DNA from: an uncultured Flavobacteriaceae bacterium
GTDB taxonomy: Bacteria > Bacteroidota > Bacteroidia > Flavobacteriales > Flavobacteriaceae
Direction: 5' to 3'
DNA: 64,000 bases
NCBI GenBank assembly: GCA_947502975.1
Contig: CANNBV010000002.1
Span: forward strand, 558,001-622,000
This document shows, one piece after another, positions 4,143 through 30,001 of this stretch. The first letter of the stretch is position 1, and the number at the start of each line of letters is the position of its first letter. Under the pieces are notes generated by a model. The model worked only from the letters and a program-made list of their open reading frames with translations. It was not told the origin of the DNA and made no database searches. The position numbers and the translations under genes are program-made.

Positions 4143-4152
4143 ATTAAGAAAT

Positions 4153-5805: not shown

Positions 5806-5807
5806 AG

Positions 5808-5996: not shown

Positions 5997-6004
5997 AAAA
6001 ATAA

Positions 6005-7435: not shown

Positions 7436-7475
7436 ATTTGATTATTTTGTATAGAAATATAATTATCTAAGTCTT

Positions 7476-9011: not shown

Positions 9012-9014
9012 TAT

Positions 9015-9842: not shown

Positions 9843-9852
9843 ATCAAAATAT

Positions 9853-10644
9853 ATGGATTTAGGATTAAAAGATAAAGTGGTGGTGGTTACCGGAGCAGCT
9901 GGTATCAAAGGCAGTATTGGTGAAACTATTGTACAACATTTAGCTGCCGAAGGTGCAATTCCAGTTCTTGTAGACAGAAATGCTAGAGGTTTTGCTTATG
10001 CTGAAGAATTACAGCAAAAAGGCATTAATGCTTCTTTTGTTCAAACGGATTTATCAGATTACAAACAAATTGAAGCTGCTGCTAAAATTATTGATGAAAA
10101 GTATGGTAGAGTAGATGCGTTAATAAACAATGTAGGTGTTAATGATGGAGCAGGTTTAGATGCGTCAATGGATGACTTTATGTATTCTTTAAAATTGAAT
10201 ATGGTAAGTTTCTTTGCAATGACGAAGTATTGCTTACCTATGCTTAAGAAAGTAAAAGGAAACATCCTTAATATAGGCTCAAAAGTGGCACTTACTGGTC
10301 AAGGTGGTACTTCAGGATATGCTGCCTCAAAAGGAGGTGTATTTGGTTTAACAAGAGAATGGGCTGTAGATTTAATTAAAGAAGGCATACGTTCTAACGC
10401 CATTGTAATTGCAGAAAGTTGGACGCCAGCGTACGATAACTGGATTAAAACCTTAGACAATGGTGAGGAAAAATTAAAATCTATTGTTAAGAAAATTCCG
10501 TTAGAAAATAGAATGACAACACCATCTGAAATTGCAGATCAGTGTTTGTTTACCATTTCAGAAAAGTCATCACACACTACAGGACAATTCATTACGGTTG
10601 ATGGAGGTTATGTAAATTTAGACCGTTCTTTATTGACAGAATAG
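9853..10644 (+). CDS. SDR-family L-fucose/L-galactose 1-dehydrogenase
   Basis: This is a 263-residue short-chain dehydrogenase with the TGAAGIKGSIGE cofactor loop (about 11-22), NNVG (about 90), a catalytic Ser-Tyr-Lys set around SKVALTG and YAASKGG, and a C-terminal ITVDGGY. The AESWTPAYDNW segment resembles L-fucose dehydrogenases of the Campylobacter FucX type. The start at 9853 is chosen over the in-frame Met at 9790, which would overlap the lactonase by 53 bp and add residues unlike an SDR N-terminus. The inferred reaction is oxidation of L-galactose (or L-fucose) to the lactone. A strong hairpin lies 18 bp after the stop. Confidence 0.85.
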   Translation: MDLGLKDKVVVVTGAAGIKGSIGETIVQHLAAEGAIPVLVDRNARGFAYAEELQQKGINASFVQTDLSDYKQIEAAAKIIDEKYGRVDALINNVGVNDGAGLDASMDDFMYSLKLNMVSFFAMTKYCLPMLKKVKGNILNIGSKVALTGQGGTSGYAASKGGVFGLTREWAVDLIKEGIRSNAIVIAESWTPAYDNWIKTLDNGEEKLKSIVKKIPLENRMTTPSEIADQCLFTISEKSSHTTGQFITVDGGYVNLDRSLLTE

Positions 10645-10662
10645 AACCATATGTTACCCTAT

Positions 10663-10700
10663 AAAAGACAAAATGAACACTTGTGTTTGTTTTGTCTTTT
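10663..10700 (+). terminator. Intra-operon hairpin between the SDR and fucP
   Basis: Two 18-nt arms (10663-10680 and 10683-10700) pair along their full length with two G-U wobbles and a 2-nt loop. The 3' arm ends TTTTGTCTTTT. It looks like a rho-independent terminator, but the next gene starts 40 bp later on the same strand with little room for a promoter, so partial termination or transcript processing is likely. Confidence 0.7.
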
Positions 10701-10740
10701 CTATTTTGCATAATATAAACTAACTAAACTTTAAATTCAG

Positions 10741-12048
10741 ATGAGTAACCCAACAAAAGTCCCAATTATTTCTAAAGGTTTAATCGTACCATTTATATTA
10801 ATTACTTTTTGTTTTGCCTTGTGGGGCTTTGCTAATGATATTACAAATCCTTTGGTTAGTGCTTTTGGACGTATTTTTAATCAAAGTCAAACAGTAAGTT
10901 CTTTTACTCAGGTTGCGTTCTATGGAGGTTATTGTTTAATGGCAATTCCAGCAGCATTGTTTATCAAAAAATATACATATAAATCTGGTATTTTATTAGG
11001 TTTAGCTTTGTATGCGATAGGAGGTCTGATTTTTATACCAGCAGCATCTACAGGTCTATTTTGGCCTTTTTTAGCAGCATTTTTTATACTAACATGTGGT
11101 CTTAGTTTTTTAGAAACTAGTGCCAATCCTTACATATTGTCGATGGGAGAGGAGTCTACATCTACCCAACGTTTAAATTTGGCTCAAGCGTTTAATCCAA
11201 TAGGCTCTATTACTGGAGCATGGGTTGCAAAAGATTTCATTCTAGCAAAAATGAATAAGCTAGGTACAGAAGAAAGAGCTGCTTTGCCAACTGAAGAATT
11301 TGAAGCTATTAAAATGGCAGATTTGCAAGTTGTAAAAGCTCCATATGTTATTATAGGAATAGTAATAGCTATTATGTTTGTGCTGATTTTATTAAAGAAA
11401 ATGCCTAAAAATAAAGAAGTTGACAACGGTAAAGGATTAGATATTAAAGGAACATTAAACAGACTATTATCTAATATTAGATATAAAGAAGGTGTAATTG
11501 CACAAGCATTTTATGTAGGAGCACAAATTTGTGTTTGGACCTACACTATACAATATGGAACAAAAGTATTTATGGATATGGGAATGATAGAAGCCGATGC
11601 AGCAACTGAGGCTGGTTCTTATACTATTTACGCATTAATAATATTTGCTGTTTCTAGGTTTATATGCACATTCTTATTGAAATATTTAACTCCAGGATCT
11701 TTATTAATGTATTTAGCCATTGGTGGAGCTGTATTATCAATACCTGTAATTTTTGTGGGAGGTATAACAGGATTATATTGTGTAGTTGCCATTTCTGCTT
11801 GTATGTCACTAATGTTCCCAACTATTTATGGTATAGCTTTAAAAGGTGTAGGAGATGATGCTAAATTAGGAGCGGCGGGATTAGTAATGGCTATAGGTGG
11901 TGGAGCGTTATTGCCTTACGTTCAAGCTTATATTATTGATACGGTAAATGTGTATATCTCATATATTTTACCATTGATATGCTTTGTGTTTATAGCATTT
12001 TATGGTTTCAGATCTTATAAGAAGTATCCATATCAAGAAACAGCTTAA
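10741..12048 (+). CDS. fucP: FucP-type MFS sugar:H+ symporter
   Basis: The 435-residue protein has about twelve hydrophobic segments and the FucP-family N-terminus (FCFALWGFANDITNPLV, about 23-39) plus the conserved ETSANPYI (about 125-132). The family imports L-fucose and is known to accept other sugars of the L-galacto configuration. Its position with a mutarotase, a lactonase and an SDR makes it the inner-membrane importer for the sugar released by GH29. It lies behind the hairpin at 10663-10700, so its dose may be set by read-through. Confidence 0.88.
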   Translation: MSNPTKVPIISKGLIVPFILITFCFALWGFANDITNPLVSAFGRIFNQSQTVSSFTQVAFYGGYCLMAIPAALFIKKYTYKSGILLGLALYAIGGLIFIPAASTGLFWPFLAAFFILTCGLSFLETSANPYILSMGEESTSTQRLNLAQAFNPIGSITGAWVAKDFILAKMNKLGTEERAALPTEEFEAIKMADLQVVKAPYVIIGIVIAIMFVLILLKKMPKNKEVDNGKGLDIKGTLNRLLSNIRYKEGVIAQAFYVGAQICVWTYTIQYGTKVFMDMGMIEADAATEAGSYTIYALIIFAVSRFICTFLLKYLTPGSLLMYLAIGGAVLSIPVIFVGGITGLYCVVAISACMSLMFPTIYGIALKGVGDDAKLGAAGLVMAIGGGALLPYVQAYIIDTVNVYISYILPLICFVFIAFYGFRSYKKYPYQETA

Positions 12049-12067
12049 TAATTAAAAAAGTAATATA

Positions 12068-12409
12068 ATGACAAAACGATATTGCTACGCCTGTGATTTA
12101 AAAGACGATTCAAAATTAATCGCCGAATATAAAGCATACCATGCAGAAGGTAAAGCATGGCCAGAAATCACAAAAAGTATTAAAGATGCTGGCATTACAG
12201 ACATGCAGATTTACTTAACGGGAAATCGTATGTTTATGATAATGGAAGTAGATGAAACGTTCGACCCTGCAAAAAAGGCTGAAATGGATGCGAATAATCC
12301 TAAAGTGCAAGAATGGGAAGATTTAATGTGGGACTACCAACAGGAATTACCATGGGCTGCAAAAGGTGAAAAATGGATTCCTTTAGAAAAGATCTTTCAA
12401 TTAAAATAA
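12068..12409 (+). CDS. L-rhamnose/L-fucose mutarotase-family protein
   Basis: The 113-residue protein belongs to the RhaM (DUF718) mutarotase family. Features are RYCYACDLKDD near the N-terminus, EITKSIKDAGITDMQIYLTGNRMFMIMEV in the centre (about 37-65) and WEDLMWDYQQELPWA near the end. Such proteins speed up the alpha/beta anomer interchange of L-sugars so that the dehydrogenase receives the right anomer. It starts 19 bp after fucP and is followed by a strong hairpin, so it closes the main catabolic operon. Confidence 0.85.
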   Translation: MTKRYCYACDLKDDSKLIAEYKAYHAEGKAWPEITKSIKDAGITDMQIYLTGNRMFMIMEVDETFDPAKKAEMDANNPKVQEWEDLMWDYQQELPWAAKGEKWIPLEKIFQLK

Positions 12410-12434
12410 AATAAAAATATTTGATTATAGCATT

Positions 12435-12476
12435 AAGCACTTATCTTAGAATTGATTTCTAAATAAGTGCTTTTTT
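12435..12476 (+). terminator. Strong terminator-like hairpin before the GH28 gene
   Basis: Arms AAGCACTTAT (12435-12444) and ATAAGTGCTT (12463-12472) pair perfectly. An inner TTAGAA/TTCTAA stem follows, then a T run to 12476. The GH28 start codon is only 17 nt beyond the stem, too close for an independent promoter, so GH28 would depend on read-through. Confidence 0.8.
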
Positions 12477-12489
12477 AATTTAAAAGATT

Positions 12490-13854
12490 ATGAAGAATTA
12501 CATCATTTTTTTTGTCTTTGTTTCGGCTTTATCAATTAATGCTCAAATCTATAACGTAAAAGATTTTGGTGCAGTAAATGATGGTCTAACTAATAATACC
12601 AAAGCTATTCAAAAGGCAATTGATTCTTGTACCAAGAATGGAGGAGGTAAAGTAGCGTTAACAGGTGGTGGTAAATACATGACTGGCACATTATATTTAA
12701 AAGACAACGTAACACTACATATTGGTAATGGAACAGTGCTTTTGGGGAGTCCAAATTATGACGATTACACAACGGATACGCATAAAAATATGTATAAGAA
12801 TGAGCCACATATGAATCGGTGTTTAATCTTTGCTAAAGATGCTAAATCTATAGCTATTGAAGGATATGGCACTATTGATGGAAATGGGCATAAGCGTAAT
12901 TTTAGTGAAGGTAGACCTATGTTACTGAGGTTTTTAAACTGTGAAAATATTCACCTTAATAATATTTCACTAATTAATCCAGCAGCATGGACTTCTGCAT
13001 GGTTGTATTGTAATAATATTAGTGTAAGTGGTATTACGATTTTAAGTAGAGTAAATAATAATGGAGATGGTTTAGATTTTGATGGTTGCACTAATGTTCG
13101 TGTAGCTAATAGTAATTTTGACAATAGTGATGATAGTATTTGTTTACAAGCATCTCAACCTGATAAACCTTGTAAAAATGTAACCGTAAGTAATTGTATA
13201 TTTAGTACAAAATGGGGAGGTATGCGCATAGGTTTATTGTCTAGAGGTAATATAGAATCGGTAACTGTAACCAACTGTGTTTTTAGAAACATTGATGACT
13301 CTGGACTTAAAATTCAGCAAAATGAAGGTGGCGAAATGAAAAACATGGTGTTTTCTAATTTAATAATGGAAAATGTGCCAAGGCCTATTTTTATGACTTT
13401 CTGCCAACAACGCGCTTCTGTTGAAACTCCTGAAGGAGAATACGAACCTCTTAGTCGAATGCATAATTTTTCATTCAGTAATATTATTGTTGACAATTCA
13501 AAAGGAGATAAAAACTCGGCATTTTTTATCACGGGTTTTCCTAACCATTATATAGAAGATATTACTATAAGAGACGTGCAATTTGTAGTATCTGGAGGTG
13601 GCTCAAAGGAAGATTCAGAAAAGAAAGTAAGGGAGTATACTATTGAAATGCTTGAAGGTTGGTGGCCTGAGTTTTATCGTGTTGGGACATTACCATCTTG
13701 TGGTGTCTATGCAAGACATATTGATGGATTGATATTGGATAATATTTCAATTAAAACTATAAATAAAGATGAAAGAGATGCGGTGGTATTCTCTGATGTT
13801 TTAAATTACAGTTTGAATACTATTAAAATAAATAACAAATCATTTAAATTTTAA
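12490..13854 (+). CDS. Atypical GH28-family glycoside hydrolase (right-handed beta-helix), secreted
   Basis: The 454-residue protein has a Sec signal (MKNYIIFFVFVSALSINAQ) and the GH28 opening YNVKDFGAVNDGLTNNTKAIQKAID. The three catalytic-type Asp are kept: Asp193 in NGDGLD and Asp214-Asp215 in NSDDSICL. The usual GHG loop reads WGG (242-244), and the usual RIK that grips the uronate carboxylate reads as GLKIQ (272-276). This suggests a neutral sugar substrate rather than galacturonan. Substrate is unknown; a galactan or fucan oligosaccharide would suit the operon. The alternative is an inactive or repurposed beta-helix protein. Confidence 0.8.
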   Translation: MKNYIIFFVFVSALSINAQIYNVKDFGAVNDGLTNNTKAIQKAIDSCTKNGGGKVALTGGGKYMTGTLYLKDNVTLHIGNGTVLLGSPNYDDYTTDTHKNMYKNEPHMNRCLIFAKDAKSIAIEGYGTIDGNGHKRNFSEGRPMLLRFLNCENIHLNNISLINPAAWTSAWLYCNNISVSGITILSRVNNNGDGLDFDGCTNVRVANSNFDNSDDSICLQASQPDKPCKNVTVSNCIFSTKWGGMRIGLLSRGNIESVTVTNCVFRNIDDSGLKIQQNEGGEMKNMVFSNLIMENVPRPIFMTFCQQRASVETPEGEYEPLSRMHNFSFSNIIVDNSKGDKNSAFFITGFPNHYIEDITIRDVQFVVSGGGSKEDSEKKVREYTIEMLEGWWPEFYRVGTLPSCGVYARHIDGLILDNISIKTINKDERDAVVFSDVLNYSLNTIKINNKSFKF

Positions 13855-14054: not shown

Positions 14055-17000
14055 CTAATATGCTTTCATTATACTAGACCAAAGGTTATTACTGTAACTT
14101 TCAAGAGATTTATCAAATAATTTTTGTGATTCGCTAGTATTTCCAAGACCTAAATTACCCAGCGCTTCCAAATAATAAGACGTAGAAGTTGCTTTATTAT
14201 CGACAACTTCGGCTTCTTCCACTGCTACTAAGGTATTGTCTGTGCCTTTTTCTCTGTATAATTTTGCTTTATTGATTAACGATTGAAAAATTTCATCAGC
14301 TTTTTGAGACTCACCAAGTTTCTTTAAAGCTGCTCCTTGAAAATATGCTAAGTCATACATCCCTCTTCCGTTTTTAGAATCAGCGCTAGCTTGATAACTA
14401 AGCTTTGCCTTTTTTGAATCATTCATCAGGGTATAAAGTTCTCCTTTAAAATAATGAATCATTGCATTTTTTTCGTCATGAGTTGGCTTCCCGACTTCTA
14501 AATTCTCAGGATATTCCATGGCTGCATCTAAATGCGTAAGTGCTTCTTCGTAATTTTTGGTTTTGGCTAAATCTAAAGCCTTAAGAATATTAGAGTCTAC
14601 ATATCTCCAATAAATATCTCTTCCACCTTCCCAAGTTCTAAAATGGTGAGATCCTAGAAAGTTTAGAGCTTTATCATAGTCACCATTCAAATTATATAAT
14701 TGTACAAGCGTTTTGGGAGCTTTCACATCTTTTTTAATAATGTCAATATTATTTTCTAAAATTGCCAAACAAGCTTTATAGTTTTGGTTAGATGCATCAT
14801 AGTATTTTGATAATTCTGCATACCATAATGGGATAGAATTATCTAATTCAATAGCTTTGGAGATATATGTAATGGCTTCATCCATATTTTTACTATGGTG
14901 GTAAGATGCAAAAGCTAAATTTCTCCAAACCATAGGGATTGAATCATCTAATTTACCTGATATTTTCCATGAGTTTATACCTTCTTCTTTTCTATTATCG
15001 TACAAAAGGTTACCTAATAAATAATAGGCAGTTGCATTTTCAGGATCTAGTTTTATAGCATGTTTTAAGATAGCTTCGGTCTCTTCACGATAAGGGAAAC
15101 AATAGTCTAAGGATAGTTTTTTTGCATTATAAAGCGAGCTCTTTGCTTTCGATGAATTTCCAGATTTTGAATATAAATAAGATAAATAATATTGTACTAA
15201 TGGATTAGTTATTTTGTCCATAGATTCCAGCAGGATAATACCATCATTATATAACCCAGCATTTATATAATTTACTACAACTTCAAGATGATTATTGTCT
15301 ATATTTTGCATGTTTTTCTGCCAATCTTTTAGATTTGAATTACCATTTAGAAGTTCTCTTTCATAAATAGCAGTGAAGTTAAGAGGGTCGTAAGCAATAA
15401 GCTCATTAATAAGAGGTTTTGCTTTTTTATTTTGATTGTTTTTACGTAGCAAAGCGCTGTAAAGTGTTACTATTCTGCCATCCCTTGTATTTGTTGAATA
15501 GGCCTCTTCAATATATTCTAGAGCTTTTTTGTAATTTCCGTTTAAACTCTCAAGTTGAGCCAGTTGATAGTTTCCTGCAGAAAACCATTGGTAATACCAT
15601 GTTGCCCTAGCAAAGTTTTTGTAAGCTTCTTGAATTTCTCCAAGACCTTTTAACGCAAGTCCTCTGTAGTAATAAAGCTCTCCTTCTTTAGGTTGAAAAT
15701 ATTTAGTTTTTAACTTATCAGAAGCTACTTGTAGATAGTTTAATGCTTCTTTATATCTATTTTGATTTGTACGCCTTATACCAAGAGCGATATTAGTTCT
15801 GTAATCTGTAGGAGATAATTTCAATGCCCTTAAATAATAGTCATCTGGATTTTTTCCAGGACGGTTAAACTGTTCTATAAATCGTCCTGTAAGATATAGG
15901 TCTTCAACAGAATCAATCTCTCCAGCTTTTTTTACTTTTTCTTGAGGCTCTGGAAGTTCAGGGCGTTGGTGTTTGTATGGTGTGTAAGCAACAAGTTCTT
16001 TTCCATTAGCATCTGTGAGTTGTACATGTAATTGGTACTCATCGATTGGTTTTCTCGATTTATAGGTTGACGTAAATGGTTGTGAAGGGCTTATATTAAT
16101 TGTTCCTTGGGCTAGAATTTCATTATTTTGCTTTAAGAAATATTTAGCACCATCAAAATTTTGAGTAGTGTTAAAGCCATAAAACACGGTTTTTGAATTT
16201 CGCATTTGTAATGTTACTGAAGCATCAATTGTTGCGTTTTTAACCACTTCTATATCTCGTAATGGATACCAATAGTTTTTTGCATCTTTTACAGAGTGAG
16301 GTAACATCCAACTATAATCTGGTTGATTATTAGAAAATGTACCGGTCATTAATTCCACATATGCTTTACCGTCATCAGTGAGTTTACGTCTAGCATTTTG
16401 ACCCTGTAACCCAGGACCGAATTGCCATAATTTCGACGCATTATTTTCATTAGGATCACCCACGTGAACGGTCCCTGCATTAACGCCATAATCATAACCT
16501 CCAATAAAACCTTCCTCAATATCCCACATAAAAAACGATACTGGATTAGGATGGTTTTTCCACCATGTTAAATCCACGCCTTCAGGGTAACTCGTTCTTC
16601 CATAACTTGGTGTTTCATTAGAAATGGGCCAGTTAATAAAATTTCTATTATTGTGAAAAACTCCTATTTCTTGGCTAGGTGGCCAAAATGTTCTAAAATC
16701 CTCGTTTGCAGTAATTGCAACATTTGCCCAAAATAAAAAAGCCTTTGTTTTGGTACTTGTGTTGTTAATTTTATAATCTACTTCAATATATGATTTGCCT
16801 GGATGTAGTGTCATGCCAATAACACCGTGAGCTCCAATAGTTTTTTCGGTTTCTCCAATCCAAATTGTGGCACTACCATCTTCATTTTTAACTAATCTGT
16901 AATCGCTAGGTAGCATTGTGGTCGTTCTATGGTGATGAGGAAAACACCATTCTATACCACCAGAAACCCATGCGCCTAAAGTGCCTATTAAATCGGGTTT

Positions 17001-17369
17001 TATAACACTGTTAGTATGAAACATTTCATGATTATTAGTTTTGTCTATAGCTGAGAATAAACGCCCACCAAATGCGGGCAGTACTTTTATTCTAATATAT
17101 TCGTTTTCTAAATACACCATGTCATAATCTACATCAACTAGTGTTCTACCAAGGTTGGTTTGAGATGGGTAGGGATAAATACGTCCTTGAGCACCTTGTA
17201 CAGATCTCCCTGTATAAAACATTGGACTTGTTTCGTCCTGTCCGCGTTTGTAGGTAGGAATGGTTTCTGTTCCTTCATAAATCTTTATTTGAGCTGTTAG
17301 ATTACAAGAAGTAGTAATAAGAAATACTATGCATATAAAACTTATGACGTTGTGGTGAAATGCCTTCAT
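14055..17369 (-). CDS. DUF5107 domain/TPR-repeat lipoprotein
   Basis: The 1104-residue protein starts with a lipoprotein-type signal (ITTSCNL, Cys22). Next comes a DUF5107 domain (about 60-380) related to galactose-mutarotase-like folds, with VLPAFGGRLFS and GGIEWCFPHHHR. A linker beta-domain follows, then a long TPR array (about 500-1090). Such fusions recur in Bacteroidetes polysaccharide loci, but no reaction is established to my knowledge. A sugar-binding or glycosidase-like role for the first domain with TPR scaffolding is an inference. It is convergent with GH28 and divergent from the putative membrane sensor at 17521. Confidence 0.75.
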   Translation of the reverse strand: MKAFHHNVISFICIVFLITTSCNLTAQIKIYEGTETIPTYKRGQDETSPMFYTGRSVQGAQGRIYPYPSQTNLGRTLVDVDYDMVYLENEYIRIKVLPAFGGRLFSAIDKTNNHEMFHTNSVIKPDLIGTLGAWVSGGIEWCFPHHHRTTTMLPSDYRLVKNEDGSATIWIGETEKTIGAHGVIGMTLHPGKSYIEVDYKINNTSTKTKAFLFWANVAITANEDFRTFWPPSQEIGVFHNNRNFINWPISNETPSYGRTSYPEGVDLTWWKNHPNPVSFFMWDIEEGFIGGYDYGVNAGTVHVGDPNENNASKLWQFGPGLQGQNARRKLTDDGKAYVELMTGTFSNNQPDYSWMLPHSVKDAKNYWYPLRDIEVVKNATIDASVTLQMRNSKTVFYGFNTTQNFDGAKYFLKQNNEILAQGTINISPSQPFTSTYKSRKPIDEYQLHVQLTDANGKELVAYTPYKHQRPELPEPQEKVKKAGEIDSVEDLYLTGRFIEQFNRPGKNPDDYYLRALKLSPTDYRTNIALGIRRTNQNRYKEALNYLQVASDKLKTKYFQPKEGELYYYRGLALKGLGEIQEAYKNFARATWYYQWFSAGNYQLAQLESLNGNYKKALEYIEEAYSTNTRDGRIVTLYSALLRKNNQNKKAKPLINELIAYDPLNFTAIYERELLNGNSNLKDWQKNMQNIDNNHLEVVVNYINAGLYNDGIILLESMDKITNPLVQYYLSYLYSKSGNSSKAKSSLYNAKKLSLDYCFPYREETEAILKHAIKLDPENATAYYLLGNLLYDNRKEEGINSWKISGKLDDSIPMVWRNLAFASYHHSKNMDEAITYISKAIELDNSIPLWYAELSKYYDASNQNYKACLAILENNIDIIKKDVKAPKTLVQLYNLNGDYDKALNFLGSHHFRTWEGGRDIYWRYVDSNILKALDLAKTKNYEEALTHLDAAMEYPENLEVGKPTHDEKNAMIHYFKGELYTLMNDSKKAKLSYQASADSKNGRGMYDLAYFQGAALKKLGESQKADEIFQSLINKAKLYREKGTDNTLVAVEEAEVVDNKATSTSYYLEALGNLGLGNTSESQKLFDKSLESYSNNLWSSIMKAY

Positions 17370-17486: not shown

Positions 17487-17515
17487 TATGCAAACACGTA
17501 TTCAAAGTTTGCATA
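17487..17515. promoter_or_regulatory. Perfect inverted repeat next to the sensor-gene start codon
   Basis: TATGCAAAC (17487-17495) and GTTTGCATA (17507-17515) are exact reverse complements separated by 11 nt, with centres 20 bp apart (about two helical turns). The repeat ends 5 nt before the ATG at 17521. It could bind a dimeric regulator, perhaps the product itself, or fold in the mRNA over the start codon. Confidence 0.6.
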
Positions 17516-17520: not shown

Positions 17521-18813
17521 ATGATAGGGCACAAGTATCTAAAACATTGTCTCGATGAGATTGAAAAAAAGCTAGGTTGGAAGCCATCATCATCTTGGAC
17601 CGAATCTGACTTTAAGAAGCTTTCCAAAGAGATATCTGAAGCATCAAATATTTCTATAAGCCCTCATACATTAAAGCGTTTATTTGGAAAAATAAAATAT
17701 AAAAAATATTATAACCCACAGTTAGCTACTAAGGATGCATTAGTTAAATTTTTAGGTTATAGGGAATGGGAAGATTTTATTTCTAAAAAAAAGAATAGTA
17801 TTACAGATGATACTTTTGAAACTAAAATAAAAGCTACTGGTAAAAGTTATAATAAGTATTTTATAATAGCGAGTTTCATACTTTTAATACTTCTAATATA
17901 TTATTTTAATTCACAGCTAAGATCAAAGGATTCATCTAGTGATGTTACTTTTGAATTCAATGTACAAGATTCTATTGGTACGGTTCCATTTACTGTAACG
18001 GTTGACTATAATTTGGTAAAATATGATTCTGATAGTTTACGGATTGATTTCGACATGAATCATCCCGTTAGTGGTCACCAAATTAAAAATGCAGATATTA
18101 CAAGGTTTAAACATAATTTTACGTATCAAATTCCAGGATATTATAAAATTAATTTGTTGGATGGTAAAAGCATAATTTCAACTCATAATGTTCTTGCGAA
18201 ATCCAAAGAGTGGAATAGTTATTTTGTTTATGAATCACATAGAAATAAGTATTGGATTGATAATGAAATTAAAACGTCAGATTCATTAGGTTATCTTTAT
18301 TTTTCTCCCAAATTACTTGAAACTAATGGCTTTAATATTAATTCGGTTTATTACATAGTTAATAGGTTATATAAAGATTTTAAAATTGATGGAGATAATT
18401 TTGAACTTTCTGCAAAATTTAAAAATTCATCTGCGTTAGGAGGTATAACCTGTTATGATTTTATCATTAATTTGGTATGCGAAAATAATTCTAATTATTT
18501 GAAGCTTATGGAGAATGGGTGTTCTCAGTTTTCTGGAATTAAAGTAGGAAATAAAATTATTGAAGGATTTCATGAGGATTTATCATTGTTTTCTCTTGAT
18601 TTAGATTCATGGAATATTTTAAAATTAATTATAACTAACAATCATGTAAAAGTCATTATTAACCGCAATATGATTTTTGAGTTTGATTATGAGGGCACTA
18701 ATGGTAATATAATTGGGTTGGAAAACATACTAAAAGGGTCGGGTATGTTAGATTATATTCATATTAAAGATTTAAATACTAATCATACTTTTATTGAAGA
18801 TTTCAACAATTAG
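17521..18813 (+). CDS. Putative membrane-spanning one-component glycan sensor (HTH-like/TM/PKD/lectin-like)
   Basis: I do not recognise a named family for the 430 residues. The first 90 residues are basic and helical, with SPHTLKRLFGKIKYKKYYNP looking like a DNA-recognition helix and wing. One transmembrane helix lies at about 113-129. The rest would be periplasmic: a PKD-like beta-sandwich (about 142-225, with IGTVPFTVTVDY) and a C-terminal concanavalin-like sandwich (about 235-430). There is no signal peptide. The topology suggests a cytoplasmic DNA-binding head tied to a periplasmic glycan-binding part. It is divergent from the DUF5107/TPR gene and convergent with the SusCD operon. The function is inferred from layout only. 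Confidence 0.65.
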   Translation: MIGHKYLKHCLDEIEKKLGWKPSSSWTESDFKKLSKEISEASNISISPHTLKRLFGKIKYKKYYNPQLATKDALVKFLGYREWEDFISKKKNSITDDTFETKIKATGKSYNKYFIIASFILLILLIYYFNSQLRSKDSSSDVTFEFNVQDSIGTVPFTVTVDYNLVKYDSDSLRIDFDMNHPVSGHQIKNADITRFKHNFTYQIPGYYKINLLDGKSIISTHNVLAKSKEWNSYFVYESHRNKYWIDNEIKTSDSLGYLYFSPKLLETNGFNINSVYYIVNRLYKDFKIDGDNFELSAKFKNSSALGGITCYDFIINLVCENNSNYLKLMENGCSQFSGIKVGNKIIEGFHEDLSLFSLDLDSWNILKLIITNNHVKVIINRNMIFEFDYEGTNGNIIGLENILKGSGMLDYIHIKDLNTNHTFIEDFNN

Positions 18814-18890: not shown

Positions 18891-20480
18891 CTATGGTCTA
18901 CTTGTAAGTTTAAATAATGTGAAATCGTCCATATAGAACTTAAGTCTTTCAGAATTCGTATTTATTCCTCTTATCATGTAGCTTATGTCTCCATCTGTAG
19001 CAAATTCTACTATTGCAGAACTATAAAACCATTCGCCTGTAGGAGAGTCTGGTGTAAATGTAATATTGTCTCCAATACCCCAGTTTGTTCCTGGTCTCCA
19101 GTACATTCTAACATTGGCTTCACCATTTAATGCCCCTAAATCCTCAATATAAACCCAAACACCCATTTCGTATTTAAATCCTTTTTCTACTGTAAAGTTA
19201 ACATTTGTTCCACCAGCATCTGTATTACCAATTATCATACCGCCGTCGGGTCTAAATTCTACATACATGCTTTTATCTCCGGTGTGAGCTCTATCAAAAG
19301 ATAAGTTCATGTCATATTCTCCCCATCTGCCTCCCCACCAAAGGTATGGCCAGTTGTCTTCAGTTGTTGTTTCGAATGAATAATCCACTACAGAGCCTTC
19401 GAAAAGGTTTGTTTTAATAAAGTCGGTTAAGATAATATCAGTAAAAGCGTCTGAGGCAACCGCATCAAGTGTGGTAAGAGCACCTGGAGTATATGATACT
19501 TTAACTGTGTCATCATTATACATTATTTCATTGGCTAATTCAATAATTAAAATATTTCCTTCGTTAGAATCTACTAAAACACTTGCTATTTCTGGGGTAA
19601 TTGTTGCTCCTCCAGCTGTTTCTATAGTTACGGTAAAGTTATTTCTATTAACTGTAGCAGGATCCATCTCTCTACTAAATTCTAGACCTATTTTGGTTTG
19701 AGTTTCATATTCATATACTCTATCTAAAGTTACAGGTTCAGTAGATGGAACAACTTTTACAAAGTTTTTAATGTAAATTGTGTCAGCGTCAGTAGGTCTT
19801 GTTCTAGAAGCTATAAACTGTAAGTCCCAAGTACCTAACTTTGTATATCTTACATCAGTCTCGGCTTCTGGGTCATCAGCAATGGATGTTTGAGCTGGAT
19901 TTGCTCCAGGCATGCTCCAATCAAAATTTGTAGGAGTTCCAGTACTGTTTTGAGAAATACGAACATATTTACTTGCAGTAATCTCATTTTCCGCATTATC
20001 AGATAAATTAAGAGGAGCACCAAGACTTCCATCTTCGTTTATATAATTTATTTGAATACTCGATGCTACATCACCAAGAACGGTTACTACAATTGTAGTG
20101 TCCAATTCTTTGCCTTGAATAGGTTCAGTACTATCTTCATTCGGATATACGTTTCCTTTAAAAACTTGATTCAATGTTACATCATAAACACCAGCTCTTG
20201 TAAAAAAACCTTTAACTACATCTTTGCTTGATGTGTTGCCTGTTTCTCCTGCGATGCTTGACGCATCTGCGGGAAACGTCCAAATTCTACTTTGAACACC
20301 TTGAGAGATGTCTCCAAAATCAATGTGTCCACCAATATTAATGGTGTTTTCAAAATTCATCTCAGAAGTAACAATTACTCTGTGATTAGGTTCAACTAAA
20401 TCGATAGATTCGTCTTCATTACACCCAACGAATAGAAGGGATAAAATGAAAATAAATTTTAAATACTTTATATTTTTCAT
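18891..20480 (-). CDS. Surface glycan-binding lipoprotein of the galactan locus (SusE-position)
   Basis: The protein (529 residues from the Met at 20480; an in-frame Met at 20489 is also possible) has a lipoprotein signal LLFVGCNEDE, with acidic residues after Cys that mark surface export in Bacteroidetes. PKD/Ig-like domains follow (about 30-350). A C-terminal jelly-roll (about 360-529) shows the pattern of CBM4/9-type carbohydrate-binding domains, with exposed Trp in WPYLWWGGRWGEY. It lies directly after SusD, the usual place for SusE/F-like glycan-binding proteins. Specificity is not readable; the nearby GH86 suggests an agar or porphyran chain. Confidence 0.78.
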   Translation of the reverse strand: MKNIKYLKFIFILSLLFVGCNEDESIDLVEPNHRVIVTSEMNFENTINIGGHIDFGDISQGVQSRIWTFPADASSIAGETGNTSSKDVVKGFFTRAGVYDVTLNQVFKGNVYPNEDSTEPIQGKELDTTIVVTVLGDVASSIQINYINEDGSLGAPLNLSDNAENEITASKYVRISQNSTGTPTNFDWSMPGANPAQTSIADDPEAETDVRYTKLGTWDLQFIASRTRPTDADTIYIKNFVKVVPSTEPVTLDRVYEYETQTKIGLEFSREMDPATVNRNNFTVTIETAGGATITPEIASVLVDSNEGNILIIELANEIMYNDDTVKVSYTPGALTTLDAVASDAFTDIILTDFIKTNLFEGSVVDYSFETTTEDNWPYLWWGGRWGEYDMNLSFDRAHTGDKSMYVEFRPDGGMIIGNTDAGGTNVNFTVEKGFKYEMGVWVYIEDLGALNGEANVRMYWRPGTNWGIGDNITFTPDSPTGEWFYSSAIVEFATDGDISYMIRGINTNSERLKFYMDDFTLFKLTSRP

Positions 20481-20492
20481 GACATGCAATTT

Positions 20493-22220
20493 TTAATTAT
20501 TTAAATTTCCATTTGTCTGCACTTCCGAGTTAGGAATAGGGAAATAGTCGTGCTGTAGAGGATTATAGTTTTCTGCTGCAACAAAAAAGTCTGGTCTTAT
20601 TCTTTCAACAATAAATAAAGGAGCTTCACCGCCTCCACCAGTATTTAGGTTGGTTTGTCTCCACGCTTCATCAGCACGTAATTCGTTAAAAACTTCTTGA
20701 ACAATACCCCAGCGTACTAAATCTTTCCATCTGTGGCCTTCAAAACAAAGTTCAACAGCTCTCTCTACACGCTGTAGATGCGTAAGCACAGTTTCCTTAC
20801 TAGGTGTTACCATTGGATGATCTCCATGTACTTGCTTGCTTACATGTATTTGGGGGAACATACCACCATTCATATCCATGTATTGTTGAAGTGTATATAC
20901 TCCGGCACGACTTCTTACCATATCTATATACGCTATAGCTGTAGTAACATCATTATTAGCATTTAAAACAGCTTCGGCATACATAAGTAGAACATCTGCA
21001 TATCTTATGTGTCTGAAGTTAATTCCTGATCTACTAAGTGCAGGTTCGGCTTCCAAATGATACCAATTTGAATGTTTTTTAACGTAAGCACTTTGGCCAA
21101 ATCCCCAACCCCTAGGTTCACCTTGAGGTAATTGATAGTATAAGCCTTCAAAATTTCTAGGTACAATAGTTGAATTCATTCTTCTTGACTCCACATTCCC
21201 ATCATTAATAGGATTATTAGGATCTACTTCATCGTACACCAACATTTCATGCAAATTGTAAGACGGTAATACCGTATTGAACGCGCCAAAATTTAATTGC
21301 CCAACAGCTGTAGCCATTGCTGTAGCTTCTGCACCTGATTCAAAAGCATTATCATCTACAGCTGCCCCAGGAACGCCAGGAGCGATTTCAGAGGAATAAT
21401 TTACTTCAAAAATAGACTCTTCATTAAACTCATTAGTATGCCAAAAATTATCCTCGATATTTCTTGTAAGTGCATACACACCAGAGTCTATGACTTCTTT
21501 GAACAATGAAGCTGCTTGATTCCAGTTTTCATCATATAAATGAACCTTACCTAAAAGACTAGTTGCAGCTCCCCAAGTAGCTCGACCAACATTTTTGCTA
21601 TCCCAAGATTGAGGTAAATTGACCATTGCAAATGTTAAATCAGGAATAATGATTCTTGATGTAACTTCTTCCTTACTTGAAAAAGGTTTTTCAAATTCGT
21701 CTGCAGTAGTAGCAACCTTCTCATGAATCATTCCGCCACCATAAGTGTGGGCTAATTGAAAATAAAAGAATGCTCTTAAAAAACGTGCTTGTCCTTCAAT
21801 TTCTGCTTTCGCATTACCTGTAAATACAGCATCATCTGCTTCTTGAATAAATTGGATAACTTGATTAGCTCTAAATATGCCAATGTATAATTGATCCCAT
21901 TTATCTGTTACGTGATAAATACCATCGTTGAATGTTAAATTTCTAAATGCATTTGGTCGGTACCAAGATTCAGTACCAGCAATGTCTCCTAATACAAACT
22001 CGTATTGTAATTCACCACCACTAACACTTTGAAATTGAAGTGCGCCGTAAGCTGCAATTAATGCAGCATTAAACTGTCTCTCACTTTGCCAAAACGTATC
22101 TGGCGTAATAGCGTTTGGATTGGGTTCGTCTAAAAATGCACCTTCGCTACAACTCGCAAAGAGCATTATTGCTAATAAACTTAGCTTTAAAATGTTGTTT
22201 TTTATTGTTTTCATAGTCAT
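20493..22220 (-). CDS. susD: SusD/RagB-family outer-membrane glycan-binding lipoprotein
   Basis: At 575 residues this is a typical SusD homologue. It has the lipobox FASCSEG, the RagB/SusD N-terminal TPR-like part (QARFLRAFFYFQLAHTYGG, about 143-161) and the C-terminal RagB domain with RYADVLLMYAEAVLNAN (about 400-416) and RRWKDLVRWG-like ending (HRWKDLVRWG). It captures oligosaccharides at the cell surface and sits as a lid on the SusC channel. The gene lies 5 bp after susC and 3 bp before the 20489 start of the glycan-binding lipoprotein, so the three are one operon. Confidence 0.93.
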   Translation of the reverse strand: MTMKTIKNNILKLSLLAIMLFASCSEGAFLDEPNPNAITPDTFWQSERQFNAALIAAYGALQFQSVSGGELQYEFVLGDIAGTESWYRPNAFRNLTFNDGIYHVTDKWDQLYIGIFRANQVIQFIQEADDAVFTGNAKAEIEGQARFLRAFFYFQLAHTYGGGMIHEKVATTADEFEKPFSSKEEVTSRIIIPDLTFAMVNLPQSWDSKNVGRATWGAATSLLGKVHLYDENWNQAASLFKEVIDSGVYALTRNIEDNFWHTNEFNEESIFEVNYSSEIAPGVPGAAVDDNAFESGAEATAMATAVGQLNFGAFNTVLPSYNLHEMLVYDEVDPNNPINDGNVESRRMNSTIVPRNFEGLYYQLPQGEPRGWGFGQSAYVKKHSNWYHLEAEPALSRSGINFRHIRYADVLLMYAEAVLNANNDVTTAIAYIDMVRSRAGVYTLQQYMDMNGGMFPQIHVSKQVHGDHPMVTPSKETVLTHLQRVERAVELCFEGHRWKDLVRWGIVQEVFNELRADEAWRQTNLNTGGGGEAPLFIVERIRPDFFVAAENYNPLQHDYFPIPNSEVQTNGNLNN

Positions 22221-22225
22221 TTTTT

Positions 22226-25200
22226 TTAAAAACTTAATTGTAGACCTAACATAAATTGTCTAGTTACTGGATAACTTCCTGCATCAACTCCTCTTGTAAA
22301 AATGCCATCACCCCCAACTTCAGGGTCATATCCAGTATAGTTAGTAAATGTAAAAGGGTTTAGCGAATTTAGATAAACCCTCGCCTTATCAATTCCCATT
22401 TTATCTTTGGTTCCCGGAATAGTATAACCTAAGGATAAGGTTCTTATTCTTAAGTATGTACCATCCTCAAGGAAAAAATCAGAGGCAGCTCTTACATTAC
22501 TATGGAATGCATTTTGCCTAAATGTTGGAATATCTGATGTTGGGTTTTGTGGGCTCCACATACTTACTAGATCACTGTGTCTTCCACCTGAGTAAGCGTA
22601 AAGTTTTGCACCATTGTATACTTCAGCTCCGTATGAAAGGTAACTTTGTACTGCAAAATCCCAACCTTTATATCGAAGGTTTAAATTTAAACCTGCTTCG
22701 AATTCTGGTTGCCCAGAGCCTGAATATGCTCTATCGTTATCATTAATAACACCATCACCATTAACATCTTTATATCTCATGTCTCCTAACTGTGGCGTAC
22801 TTACTGCGGCTAAATCTAACTGATTATATTCATCTAATTCTTCCTGTGTTTTAATTACCCCATCATTTTGAAATAAGAAAAATGAGCCTGCTTCGCGACC
22901 TACTGCAAGAAAAGTTGTAAACTCCGTATTTTGCCCTCTTGAAACGATAGGACGCCCGTTTGCAAAACCTCTTTCAATACCGTTTAGGTTTGTTACTTCA
23001 TTTATATTTTTAGTAAACGTACCAGAAAGATCAAATTTAAGTTCTGAACCGATTTGTCCCTTATAACTTGCAGAAACTTCAATACCTTTATTAGTCATAT
23101 CTCCTGCGTTTACAAGTACCCTATTAAATTGAGTTACTGCTCTTGGCTGGGCAGTACCCGTAGAAGGAGCAAGTGGCTGCTCTATTAGCATATCTTCTTT
23201 ATCATTCTCATACAAATCCACGGTAAGATTAAATCGATTTTTAAACATGGATAAATCAAAACCAATATTTTTAGAAATCTGAGTTTCCCATTGAATATCT
23301 TCATTCGTGTATTGTCGTTGTGTTAAACCAAAATTTAACTCCTCTTCAGTGCCTAATGGATAATTAACGCCTGCTCCAATAATTGGAATTGCTGGATATC
23401 CTGAAACACCTTGAAATCCTAATTCAGCCCAACTACTTCTTATCTTAAATGAATTTATTGCTGGTATGTTAAACCAATTTTCTTCGTGTACGTTCCATCC
23501 CGCGGAAAAACCAGGAAACGTTCCATATCTGTTTTCTTCAGAGAATAAAGAAGAACCATCTCGTCTTACACTTGCTGAGAGCAAATATTTTTCATCAAAG
23601 TTGTATTGTAATCTAGCAAGTTTACCAGTAATTGTTCTTCTAAAGTTAGTACCAGTAGGACGAATACCTTCTGCACCAGCAGATAATACTTGTATGTCAT
23701 TAGAAGCATCATCTCCAAACTGAACAGCTACACCAATATTTCTATTATCTTGTTTTTCGTATGATGCAACAGCTAATGCATTAAAATTATGCTTTCCAAA
23801 GCTTTTTTGATAATTTAGAATATGCTCAATAGTTTCTCTTTTGTTGAAAATATAACTTTCTGCTAGACTTGCATTAGGAGTAGATGCCGTAGCATTGTAA
23901 GCTCCAGTTCTAGAAAAAGCTAAATATTGAGGTCGGAAAAACTTTCTAAAAAAGTTCCACTCGTTTCTACCTATATTCAGTTTATACTTTAAGCCATCTA
24001 AAACTTCATATTCTAAATTTACTGCAATGTTATTGCTTTTTATTTCTCTTTCATCAACATTTTCTAATTGTCTGGATAAGAAACCATAAAAAATCTCATT
24101 GTCCACATCTAACTGAACACTGTTTTCTCCAACACTAGGAATATCTGAAAGAGGTCTACTCCAAGGTGACTGACCAATAGCATATTCGTAAAGCGCAAAT
24201 GGTTCCTGCGAGCGGTTTTCAGTAGTTAAAGCCATTGTAGCAAAGGCTTTAAATTTACCTTTAGTAAACTGTCCTGTTATTCTATTGGTTAAACGATCAA
24301 AACCAGAGTTTAACAAAACACCATCTTGTTTAAAGTAGTTGGTGTTAAAATTAAATGTTAAACCTTCAGTACCACCCGAAATATTTAAATCAACACTCTG
24401 TACAAGCGCATTATCCTTCTGAACGTCGCCAACGAAGTCCGTATCAAAATCGAGTGCATTAGGGTTAAAGAAAAACGTTAATGGTTCTGTACCTAACTGC
24501 TCGGTAGTTACTTCTAAATTATACAACTGTTCTGTTGTATTCATTAATGGAGTCCCAGAAGTTATATTTTGAATACCAGTATAAGTATTAAGGTTCACCT
24601 TCATTTTTCCAGCTTTACCTTTCTTAGTGGTTATTAAAATTACACCACCAGCAGCTCTTACACCATAAACGGCGGCAGAGGCACCATCCTTTAAAATATC
24701 AATACTCTCAATTTGTTCAGGAGCAATGTTAGGATTCCCTTCTTGTGGAATGTTATCTACAACGTAAAGTGGGCCGCCACCATTTATAGATACAACACCT
24801 CTAATTTGAACGTTAGCAGCTTCACCTGGACGACCACTAGCCGCTTGAATATTAACACCAGCTACCTTACCTTGAATTGCTGCTCCTAAGTCAGAAACTG
24901 GAGAGCTTACAATATCCTCAGCTTTAACTTGCGCTACAGCTCCTGTAACTTCTTTCTTTTTCTGCGTACCATAACCTACAACTACAACTTCTTCAAGTTC
25001 CGATAGGTCGGTTTCTAATGATACGTTAATTTGAGTTTTACTGCTAACTGCAATATCTCTTGTTTTGAATCCTAGAAAACTGAATTCTAAAACGGTATTA
25101 CTACCAGCTTTAATTTCATAATTTCCATCAAAATCAGTAACGGCACCATTAGTAGTTCCCTTTACTATTACGTTTACACCTGGTAAAGGTATACCATCAC

Positions 25201-25315
25201 CAGTGACTGTTCCTTTTACAGTTATATTTTGGGCTTGGACGAGTCCAAAACCAAATAAGAGCAATAATAGCACACAATGCTTTGCTCTTGCATTCATACA
25301 AAAGTTTAATTTCAT
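22226..25315 (-). CDS. susC: SusC/RagA-family TonB-dependent oligosaccharide transporter
   Basis: The 1029-residue outer-membrane receptor has a signal peptide (about 1-28), a carboxypeptidase-regulatory-like domain (about 30-110, GVNVIVKGTTNGAVTDFDG), the SusC motif ELEEVVVVGYGTQKKKEVTGAV (plug start; TonB-box region), a plug domain (about 118-230) and a 22-strand barrel ending in the aromatic QLSF. It imports glycan fragments with energy from TonB/ExbBD. It heads the susC-susD-SGBP operon and is preceded by the TPR/LuxR regulator gene on the same strand. Confidence 0.94.
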   Translation of the reverse strand: MKLNFCMNARAKHCVLLLLLFGFGLVQAQNITVKGTVTGDGIPLPGVNVIVKGTTNGAVTDFDGNYEIKAGSNTVLEFSFLGFKTRDIAVSSKTQINVSLETDLSELEEVVVVGYGTQKKKEVTGAVAQVKAEDIVSSPVSDLGAAIQGKVAGVNIQAASGRPGEAANVQIRGVVSINGGGPLYVVDNIPQEGNPNIAPEQIESIDILKDGASAAVYGVRAAGGVILITTKKGKAGKMKVNLNTYTGIQNITSGTPLMNTTEQLYNLEVTTEQLGTEPLTFFFNPNALDFDTDFVGDVQKDNALVQSVDLNISGGTEGLTFNFNTNYFKQDGVLLNSGFDRLTNRITGQFTKGKFKAFATMALTTENRSQEPFALYEYAIGQSPWSRPLSDIPSVGENSVQLDVDNEIFYGFLSRQLENVDEREIKSNNIAVNLEYEVLDGLKYKLNIGRNEWNFFRKFFRPQYLAFSRTGAYNATASTPNASLAESYIFNKRETIEHILNYQKSFGKHNFNALAVASYEKQDNRNIGVAVQFGDDASNDIQVLSAGAEGIRPTGTNFRRTITGKLARLQYNFDEKYLLSASVRRDGSSLFSEENRYGTFPGFSAGWNVHEENWFNIPAINSFKIRSSWAELGFQGVSGYPAIPIIGAGVNYPLGTEEELNFGLTQRQYTNEDIQWETQISKNIGFDLSMFKNRFNLTVDLYENDKEDMLIEQPLAPSTGTAQPRAVTQFNRVLVNAGDMTNKGIEVSASYKGQIGSELKFDLSGTFTKNINEVTNLNGIERGFANGRPIVSRGQNTEFTTFLAVGREAGSFFLFQNDGVIKTQEELDEYNQLDLAAVSTPQLGDMRYKDVNGDGVINDNDRAYSGSGQPEFEAGLNLNLRYKGWDFAVQSYLSYGAEVYNGAKLYAYSGGRHSDLVSMWSPQNPTSDIPTFRQNAFHSNVRAASDFFLEDGTYLRIRTLSLGYTIPGTKDKMGIDKARVYLNSLNPFTFTNYTGYDPEVGGDGIFTRGVDAGSYPVTRQFMLGLQLSF

Positions 25316-25475: not shown

Positions 25476-27077
25476 TTAAAATTTATTGATAAATTCTTCT
25501 AGATTGTCGTTTCTGTTGAGTCCAAGTTTTTTTCGAAGTCTATGCCTTGAGGTATGTACGCTTTCTACAGAAATTCCTAGTAGTTTTGACATGTCTTTAC
25601 TTGGAAAATTAAGTTTTACTAACGCACATATTTTTAAGTCAGTTTGCTTAAGCTGGGGGAAATTAGATTTAAGTCCTTTGTAAAAACTTTGATTTATAGT
25701 AGTAAACCTAGCTTCGAATTCAGACCAGTTACTTTGTGGTGTACCTTGGATAGATTTAAGAATACGTTTAATAACACTCACATCAACATTATCTTTTTGA
25801 TCAGATAGTCTTGTTTTAATACTTGAAATAAATTCATCTTTTTCGATAAGTCTCAAGGCAGACTCTGTCAACTCTTTATTTTTAAGTTCTAAAACTTCTT
25901 GATGCCTTTTTAAACGCTCTTTTTGACGTTCTCTTATAATTAGTTTTTCACTTTTATGCTTGTTTCTAATATTTCTTATTGACAAATAGCCGAACAAAAG
26001 AATGAAAACTATAGTTACTATTAATATAATTGATTTTAGCATCCAAACTTTGTCTTCTTGTTCCAATTGTAAAATGCGTTGCTGTTTAGCTATGTCTTCT
26101 TGCTTTTTTTGCTCAATACGATATTTGTCTTTAATTTCAAATAAGTGTTGGTTATTTTGAACACTATAAATTTTTTCATGTAAATCTTTAGCTTTTACTA
26201 GTGATTCGTTTGCTAAAAGGAAGTTCTGTTGTTCTGAATACAGTTTGTGTAATTCTTCAAATACAATAAGTTTATAATCTAAATGACTATTGTAAATACT
26301 TGAAACTTCTAAAGACTTTATAAAGTATTTTTCACTATCTGTTAAATTACCTTTTAATCTATAAGTTTTTCCTAAAAGCGCATAAACTATAACAAGATAT
26401 GAGGGGTTATTTTTTTTAAAATATTCTAATGAGCTTTTTAATTTTTGAAGCCCCGTATCATAATCTCCTTTTAGAGTTAATAGGTATCCTGATTCGGATT
26501 TGGAATAAAAATCTATTTCAATCGAAGGGTTTATTTCTCTAACATAATTTATGCTATCTAGATATTTAGAGGCAATTTCATTGTTTTCATTCACCCTGTG
26601 AAATGATGCAAATGAAAAATAACTTTGAATTAAAAACCCATTATTTAACTTTTTTGAAGCCATCAATTTTTTTCTGATGGATAAAGAATGCTCAAAATAT
26701 TTTAAAGCCTCATCATTTCTTTTGTAAAAAGTATATAGCCATCCAAGTCCAAGATAGATATTTGCTTTAGATATGGAATCCTTTGATTTATCTGCTAATA
26801 AGAGAGCTTCCCAATAGCCATCATATGACTTTTCATAATTTATTTGATGAGCATACAAATCAGAAAGAGACGTTAAAAATTCAATAGCTTTTAATGTGTC
26901 CTTTTGTTGAAGTCTTAATTTATATCCTTTGTTTAAATAAAATATTGCACTATCCTGATTTTTAAATTTCAATGAATTTGCCTTAGTAAGTAAACTGTCC
27001 TTTGTGAAATTAGTTTGCGAAATACAGATATTAAAAAAGAGTAAGGAAGAACAGTATATAAAGTATATTAGTTTCAT
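25476..27077 (-). CDS. TPR-domain membrane regulator with C-terminal LuxR-type HTH
   Basis: From the Met at 27077 the protein has 533 residues. That start gives a clear signal peptide (MKLIYFIYCSSLLFFNICIS); the upstream Met at 27131 would not. TPR repeats fill about 35-320, a coiled segment and one transmembrane helix follow (MLKSIILIVTIVFILLFGYL, about 348-367), then a coiled coil. A LuxR-like HTH is at the C-terminus (DLKICALVKLNFPSKDMSKLLGISVESVHTSRHRLRKKLG, cited here in two parts: DLKICALVKLNFPSKDMSKL and GISVESVHTSRHRLRKK). The layout resembles Bacteroidetes periplasm-sensing regulators. It lies upstream of susC and divergent from GH86, so it is the likely local activator. Confidence 0.82.
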   Translation of the reverse strand: MKLIYFIYCSSLLFFNICISQTNFTKDSLLTKANSLKFKNQDSAIFYLNKGYKLRLQQKDTLKAIEFLTSLSDLYAHQINYEKSYDGYWEALLLADKSKDSISKANIYLGLGWLYTFYKRNDEALKYFEHSLSIRKKLMASKKLNNGFLIQSYFSFASFHRVNENNEIASKYLDSINYVREINPSIEIDFYSKSESGYLLTLKGDYDTGLQKLKSSLEYFKKNNPSYLVIVYALLGKTYRLKGNLTDSEKYFIKSLEVSSIYNSHLDYKLIVFEELHKLYSEQQNFLLANESLVKAKDLHEKIYSVQNNQHLFEIKDKYRIEQKKQEDIAKQQRILQLEQEDKVWMLKSIILIVTIVFILLFGYLSIRNIRNKHKSEKLIIRERQKERLKRHQEVLELKNKELTESALRLIEKDEFISSIKTRLSDQKDNVDVSVIKRILKSIQGTPQSNWSEFEARFTTINQSFYKGLKSNFPQLKQTDLKICALVKLNFPSKDMSKLLGISVESVHTSRHRLRKKLGLNRNDNLEEFINKF

Positions 27078-27308
27078 TAATGTCAAGTTAGTTAGTATAG
27101 TTAATTTGCAATTTACTAAAAAAAAAATCATAATTATAACTGTACAATTTGTGATTTTTAAAATATGATTATGTTGTATTTATTGAATCCAGTAGTAGTT
27201 TATTAAATTTTTAACTATACTTATTTGGTTTTTTATGATTGTGATTTTTATAAGTTTTTATTAATAATTTTTTTATTTGTTTAGTTATTTGTGAGTTTAA
27301 AAATGACT

Positions 27309-29990: not shown

Positions 29991-30001
29991 AAAAATTAAA
30001 A

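Follow-up and report, generated by a model that had tools for sequence, protein, structure and literature searches.

ToxR and CadC, which act on DNA from the membrane, carry winged helix-turn-helix (HTH) domains of the OmpR type. Together with TcpP and TfoS they are established membrane-anchored regulators of the class of transmembrane transcription regulators (TTRs), for which a survey based on Pfam DNA-binding profiles gives 50,302 members (PMC10269533), and within which TfoS and ChiS respond to chitin (PMC11856585). In Bacteroidota the regulation of carbohydrate genes is usually ascribed to hybrid two-component systems (HTCS), SusR and sigma/anti-sigma systems, and SusR of Bacteroides is itself a membrane-anchored regulator associated with direct-repeat motifs (PMC3878776). 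Here we analyse a gene found within 64,000 nucleotides of DNA from an uncultured Flavobacteriaceae bacterium (assembly GCA_947502975.1, contig CANNBV010000002.1, positions 558,001 to 622,000, forward strand; this whole stretch is called the window below). Its 430-residue product is probably a membrane-anchored one-component regulator, that is a TTR, of its own gene and of the divergent gene for a DUF5107-TPR protein, and not primarily of the porphyran polysaccharide utilization locus (PUL) encoded nearby. The protein anatomy, the family, the divergent pairing and the repeat element described below were computed here.

Like TTRs, the protein would combine a DNA-binding part and a transmembrane (TM) region in one chain and act on DNA from the membrane, with TfoS and ChiS as glycan-responsive precedents; at least one TM region, by which TTRs are recognized, is predicted in it. 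It differs in that its N-terminal domain (N-domain) has no Pfam model, and since TTRs were collected by Pfam DNA-binding profiles, the survey would probably have missed the family. With SusR-like regulators (PMC3878776) it would share a membrane location, a periplasmic sensor, a cytoplasmic DNA-binding domain, carbohydrate genes and direct repeats, whereas its HTH-like domain is N-terminal, its repeats lie about 10-11 bp apart and its ectodomain is ConA-like; no C-terminal cytoplasmic DNA-binding domain of the SusR type was found, residues 229-430 being ConA-like. HTCS sense glycans at the membrane of Bacteroidota and carry their own DNA-binding domain, as the protein may do, but none of their domains (HisKA/HATPase_c, receiver, AraC HTH) is matched in the window protein at E<=10. 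A single TM segment and a periplasmic sensing part recall the FecR/FecI pairs of anti-sigma and extracytoplasmic function (ECF) sigma factors, but there is no FecR match at E<=10 and neither adjacent gene encodes a sigma factor by Pfam, one being the DUF5107-TPR gene and the other encoding a protein without a Pfam match at E<=1e-5. An initial annotation of the sequence had distinguished the protein from the hybrid two-component, SusR and anti-sigma types, and the defining domains or layout of each are missing here. The protein is set apart from known regulators by its unmodelled N-terminal HTH-like domain, ConA-like ectodomain, short-spaced repeats and divergent two-gene layout. The same annotation had proposed a possible new class of one-component membrane regulator: such a regulator is how the protein is best interpreted, and neither Pfam nor NCBIfam has a name for the family, but the general kind is already known from SusR and from TTRs including TfoS and ChiS (PMC3878776, PMC10269533, PMC11856585).

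Table. Coordinates of the predicted regulator, its domains, the repeat element and the divergent partner gene in the window.
Feature	Position	Strand	Basis or remark
Divergent partner, DUF5107 + TPR protein (1104 aa), predicted target	14055..17369	-	Pfam; divergent from regulator in orthologs too
Operator-like element, inverted repeat TATGCAAAC-N11-GTTTGCATA, full TATGCAAACacgtattcaaaGTTTGCATA	17487..17515	.	Directly upstream of regulator ATG
Membrane-anchored regulator gene (predicted)	17521..18813	+	430 aa; intact open reading frame (ORF) and relatives with same layout
N-terminal five-helix domain, predicted cytoplasmic, Xre/lambda-repressor-like HTH	residues 1-97, 17521..17811	+	AF2, Foldseek/VIA, hhalign
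Putative recognition helix region SPHTLKRLFG	residues 47-56, 17659..17688	+	Invariant S47/T50/L51/K52/R53 (A2); aligned to HTH_3 recognition helix
Transmembrane helix	residues 110-133, 17848..17919	+	AF2 helix; hydropathy 113-131
Beta domain, PKD-like by eye only	residues 141-228, 17941..18204	+	AF2 strands
ConA-like lectin-fold domain, predicted periplasmic	residues 229-430, 18205..18810	+	AF2; VIA; C311/C334 invariant in A2

The strongest evidence that the protein may bind DNA lies outside it, in the divergent pairing of the family genes and in the repeats upstream of them. A scan of genome_contigs yielded 186 relatives across Bacteroidota, and the best 80, from named Flavobacteriaceae, Cytophagales, Sphingobacterium, Chitinophaga and Saprospiraceae, were taken as family loci; L042, which has no ORF under the calling rule, was dropped, leaving 79 loci, or 66 after removal of near-duplicate upstream regions. 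The family gene is divergent from the called upstream gene in 74 of 79 cases, with a median gap of 104.5 bp. A divergent neighbor within 250 bp accompanies 61 of 66 family genes versus 156 of 725 control genes from these loci, some of these controls being spurious since ORF calling was mechanical, longest first.

The upstream regions of the family contain tandem repeats with a consensus, drawn by eye, of about aaAACAAGTTsGTTCAAgttgaTTCAAtgttgTTCAAgt. Pairs of T[ATG]CAA 10 bp apart occur in 37 of the 66 regions (shuffled sequences: mean 0.61, maximum 3), and pairs 20 bp apart in 26. The pattern T[ATG]CAA-N5/6-T[ATG]CAA was found upstream of 39 of 66 family genes versus 9 of 655 controls (Fisher p 6e-38), a comparison in which the expression was formulated after viewing the same loci, not blind, and the controls were counted with the identical expression; on the other strand it is present in one family region out of 66. 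One of the nine control matches stands in front of the partner-type gene of locus L018 (5948-7807), where a DUF2911 gene lies between partner-type gene and regulator, and two repeat arrays lie between partner and DUF2911 gene. The paralog in the window's own genome has a canonical array upstream. This array is the only genome match of the canonical triple pattern, the reversed control pattern also giving one; a looser triple-repeat pattern was discarded as being at chance level (two genome matches, two for the reversed control) and as missing the paralog's array. In a set of 27 upstream regions inspected by eye, several (L007, L009, L010 and L012 among them) lack a clear array. Several of the regions upstream of L119-L124, also seen by eye, have related but different repeats of the CCGTTCATTTACCG type, perhaps through drift of the operator together with its regulator.

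The element in front of the window gene is palindromic, and TATGCAAA-N10..14-TTTGCATA has its sole exact site in the genome there. When up to three mismatches are allowed, the palindrome still has one match in the 64-kb window (shuffled sequences: mean 0.05). In an alignment of six orthologs, five show it by eye with perfect or almost perfect arms and the ortholog of genome G338 with degenerate ones.

The commonest partner of the family genes is a protein of about 367 residues with a signal-like start, and 53 of 74 partners match a crude N-terminal signal pattern. Pfam was scanned with 62 of the 63 divergent partners of at least 100 aa (L052, truncated at 117 aa, was left out): PF06439 is matched at E<=0.001 in 25 of 62 and DUF2911 in 4 of 62. 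Close orthologs of the 430-residue protein (47-61% identity) are present in 5 of 396 other family genomes, belonging to five other genera, and four of the five are paired with a long divergent DUF5107 protein of 45-82% identity over the part seen. At the G338 locus (L111: 1039-1257), only a 73-aa DUF5107 match stands beside the regulator, together with the degenerate element, which looks like a pair in decay. The other neighbors of the ortholog in genome G030 are OmpA-type, phosphodiesterase/sulfatase-type, TssD, VasE-like and PKD proteins and one unmatched protein; none of the seven neighbors scanned there is SusC/SusD-like, and two are type VI secretion-like. As the DUF5107 partner is retained in orthologs, even where a look at the neighborhood revealed no PUL genes, the likely target is the DUF5107-TPR gene rather than the porphyran PUL.

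The window ORF is intact and starts with ATG, whereas the opposite-strand frame is interrupted by many stops. Scans of the protein against Pfam and NCBIfam gave nothing above cut-off, which agrees with the annotated lack of a kinase, and PDB sequence searches with the whole protein, the N-domain and the C-terminal domain gave nothing useful (best match of the C-terminal domain 3imm, E 0.45). An AF2 model built with 68 sequences (mean pLDDT 85.3, pTM 0.66) presents an HTH-like five-helix domain at one end and a ConA-like domain at the other. The N-domain helices span residues 2-18, 28-42, 48-54, 68-77 and 83-97, with pLDDT of 84-98 over residues 1-90 in the full model and a mean of 87.2 when folded alone. 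Residues 1-97 are basic, as annotated, with 20 K+R against 13 D+E.

The N-domain is likely a very divergent Xre-like HTH, a reading of the predicted model that we base on weak VIA and Foldseek likeness together with an hhalign alignment in HTH register that scores above shuffles. The top Foldseek match is the N-terminal domain of the TP901-1 CI repressor (E 1.2, prob 0.57). Going by their titles, nine of the 12 leading VIA rows belong to DNA-binding proteins of HTH type (phage repressors, DdrO, an antitoxin-module chain, ClgR, lambda cI, EspR and HNF1a), at Z 4.2-5.7, where values below 8 can reflect common arrangement. The fold is thus not unrelated to DNA-binding domains, and to this extent the DNA-binding character given to the N-terminus in the initial annotation stands, though on weak matches. 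When the N-domain was aligned by hhalign with HTH_3 domains of the same genome, LSxTTLKRxWG fell on the recognition helix (prob 28.7%, score 23.6), compared with maxima of 16.9 and 18.4 for 60 shuffles per side (120 in all) and 10.8 for the reversed profile. HTH_3 itself is not matched by the window protein at E<=10 or by 68 members at E<=0.1, and no DNA-binding model of Pfam or NCBIfam matches either.

The single TM helix of the initial annotation is recovered in the model and by hydropathy. K and R are more abundant before the helix than after it in 67 of 79 members, and because of this excess and the invariant cysteine pair of the C-terminal domain, the protein fits a predicted N-in, C-out topology. 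Beta strands follow the TM helix from residue 147 to 426 in the model. The first beta domain had been labeled PKD-like, and this assignment was dropped: its profile scores 13.8 against PKD_4 of the same genome by hhalign, in PKD register, but the best score of shuffled columns is 14.4; Pfam gives no PKD match in the window protein or 68 members, and the one PDB match of the profile (E 1.5) is not useful. The annotated lectin-like character of the C-terminal domain is well matched by the predicted structure, in which residues 229-421 form a ConA-like lectin/glucanase jellyroll, with listed VIA rows at Z 10.9-12.3 (among them ERGIC-53 at 12.3, CBM66 at 11.7 and galectins at about 11); this jellyroll dominates the Foldseek matches of the full model. 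Carbohydrate sensing by the modeled lectin-fold domain is plausible.

The family is scattered across the phylum and not universal. The N-domain profile matches 20 of 395 genomes of a phylum-wide sample at E<=1e-6, and among 99 related genomes, the own genome included, seven contain 12 matches at E<=1e-5. Two of the 12 are in the own genome, which encodes one full-length paralog of 26% identity. Since full-length relatives with the same layout are found in many genera, the domain layout is not a chance assembly. Alignment A2 comprises 67 of the 79 members and the window protein (68 rows), alignment A4 58 members and the window protein. Invariant in A2 are S47, T50, L51, K52, R53 and W83 of the N-domain, Y202 and P205-Y207 of the beta domain, and C311 and C334 of the C-terminal domain. 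In all five close orthologs the N-domain is the most conserved part (56-72%); the ORF of the G030 ortholog has 429 aa, a flagged in-frame TGA being its terminal stop. No Pfam or NCBIfam family is common to most of the 68 members scanned: PF06439 (3-keto-disaccharide hydrolase) matches 12 of them at E<=0.1, and NCBIfam at E<=0.01 gives six families with one member each. Literature searches returned no account of the family among the matches listed, subscription papers and preprints lying outside the search, and the family is apparently unclassified, with no name in either database. Remoter relatives of the N-domain (L095, L098, L100-L105) have one hydrophobic segment (at about 94-133; 182-200 in L101) and different C-terminal parts, which suggests a larger superfamily of membrane-anchored proteins.

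Several observations weigh against the interpretation as a DNA-binding membrane regulator. No structural match of the N-domain is significant, bromodomains are among its 16 Foldseek matches at E<=10, and the titles of three among the first 12 VIA rows (two MPnS and one RGHR-DLDH1 model) do not denote DNA-binding proteins. Inside the ConA-like part, 40 of 79 members have a further hydrophobic segment above the hydropathy threshold, in most cases the weaker one; we read it as a buried strand of that part. No T[ATG]CAA-N5/6 pair is present in 27 of 66 family upstream regions, the own upstream region of the L018 regulator lacks a good array, and the window element itself, with a spacer of N7, falls outside this expression. 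Pairs spaced N5-7 occur 15 times in the window, counting both strands, and therefore only the palindrome is specific there. The element could also be the site of another protein or part of the promoter of the regulator, and TTG-N18-AAAGTTTG resembles the -33/-7 promoter of Bacteroidota. DUF5107 genes were compared at 30 loci, drawn from 47 matches in 43 of 397 genomes and not including the G338 regulator locus: the N5-7 element lies upstream in 5 of 5 loci with a regulator (the strict palindrome in four) versus 0 of 25 loci without (eight of these at 59-70% identity), but this contrast is confounded because DNA upstream of the regulator can be present only at loci that have the regulator. It is compatible with an operator of the regulator and with a promoter of the regulator gene alike and cannot separate them.

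The alternative that survives best is a sub-case of regulation of the divergent gene, and does not exclude it: the signal would be the partner protein or the state of the envelope instead of a sugar. Partners often look secreted and include the PF06439-like proteins counted above, and a feedback loop could exist in which the partner, once secreted, binds the sensor. Against this, lectins, galectins and glucanases make up most of the titles among the listed structural matches of the ConA-like part, and we regard this variant as tentative and on the whole doubtful. Less probable still is a membrane receptor whose N-domain serves in protein interaction, with the repeats owned by a separate transcription factor or serving as a promoter feature. 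The weak structural likeness to HTH domains leaves room for this, as do distant versions of the N-domain in TM-free proteins with a P-loop NTPase-like part (L125-L131), for which a signaling role is equally imaginable, but the element accompanies regulator genes and is rare in front of the other genes there, TLKR falls in the HTH recognition helix in the hhalign alignment, which outscores all 120 shuffles, and no other conserved regulator gene directly adjoins the pair in the window or in G030, by eye and Pfam; we consider this explanation unlikely. That the protein senses porphyran or another red-algal glycan and activates the porphyran PUL (SusC/SusD at 20493-25315, porphyranase at 27360), as the initial annotation had linked it, agrees with a lectin-fold ectodomain and with a position between a GH28 gene (12490-13854) and the SusC/D-porphyranase cluster, but is very improbable, being weakened by the gene context of the orthologs described above, by the single palindrome site, absent elsewhere in window and genome and hence not before SusC, and by another candidate membrane regulator (25476-27131) directly upstream of SusC.

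The distant N-domain versions form the head of open frames of 823-878 aa at L125-L131 and L138 (genomes G786, G519, G688, G570, G540, G801 and G809); these proteins are P-loop NTPase-like by eye and show no TM segment in the part seen.

For regulation of the divergent pair from the membrane we infer the following course, in which DNA binding by the N-domain, topology and target are deduced from the evidence above, and the ligand and the sign of regulation are guesses. A divergent Xre/lambda-repressor-like N-domain would be held in the cytoplasm and bind DNA from the membrane, at T[ATG]CAA repeats spaced about 10-12 bp (in the window also a palindrome) between the regulator gene and its divergent neighbor. 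An N-domain dimer or head-to-tail oligomer could occupy the repeats on one face of the DNA, between the two divergent promoters, while the TM helix would connect it to the periplasmic beta domain and ConA-like domain. Binding of a carbohydrate or of the partner protein to the ConA-like domain might then alter oligomeric state or DNA affinity, and so control the regulator gene and the DUF5107-TPR gene.

In terms of the family as a whole, the evidence leans, by a modest degree, towards a Bacteroidota-wide family of membrane-anchored one-component factors with a divergent Xre-like domain, a periplasmic sensor of ConA-like fold and a T[ATG]CAA operator that is nearly private (about one repeat per DNA turn), shared with one divergently transcribed, secreted carbohydrate-type protein; sensor and effector would form a two-gene cassette that has taken different proteins as partners (ConA-like, DUF2911, DUF5107). 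A further membrane-anchored class with a predicted operator would provide a directly testable regulator-target pair in many genera and a compact one-chain sensor module for laboratory use. It also suggests why transcription regulators of this sort can escape surveys of membrane proteins that rely on profiles: there is no model for the DNA-binding domain.

Other genes of the window include the one at 25476-27131 (minus strand), which encodes a 551-aa protein with a signal-like N-terminus, TPRs, one hydrophobic segment and, by eye, a LuxR-like C-terminal end; Pfam at E<=0.001 finds the TPRs only and not the LuxR-like end. Like the 430-residue protein it is a candidate membrane-anchored regulator adjoining carbohydrate genes, but its HTH-like part (by eye, not in Pfam) is C-terminal and its sensor part consists of TPRs, and it is the better candidate for regulating the porphyran PUL. 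Downstream of SusD, 18891-20489 (minus strand) encodes a 532-aa protein that matches nothing in Pfam at E<=1e-5 and may be a glycan-binding surface lipoprotein. Carbohydrate clusters are joined in the window at 1297-13854, 27360-35160, 44451-46109 and 53105-56453, their content comprising altronate/galactarate-type and GH28 genes, a porphyranase with GH2, sulfatases, and chondroitinase-B/alginate-lyase-type genes.
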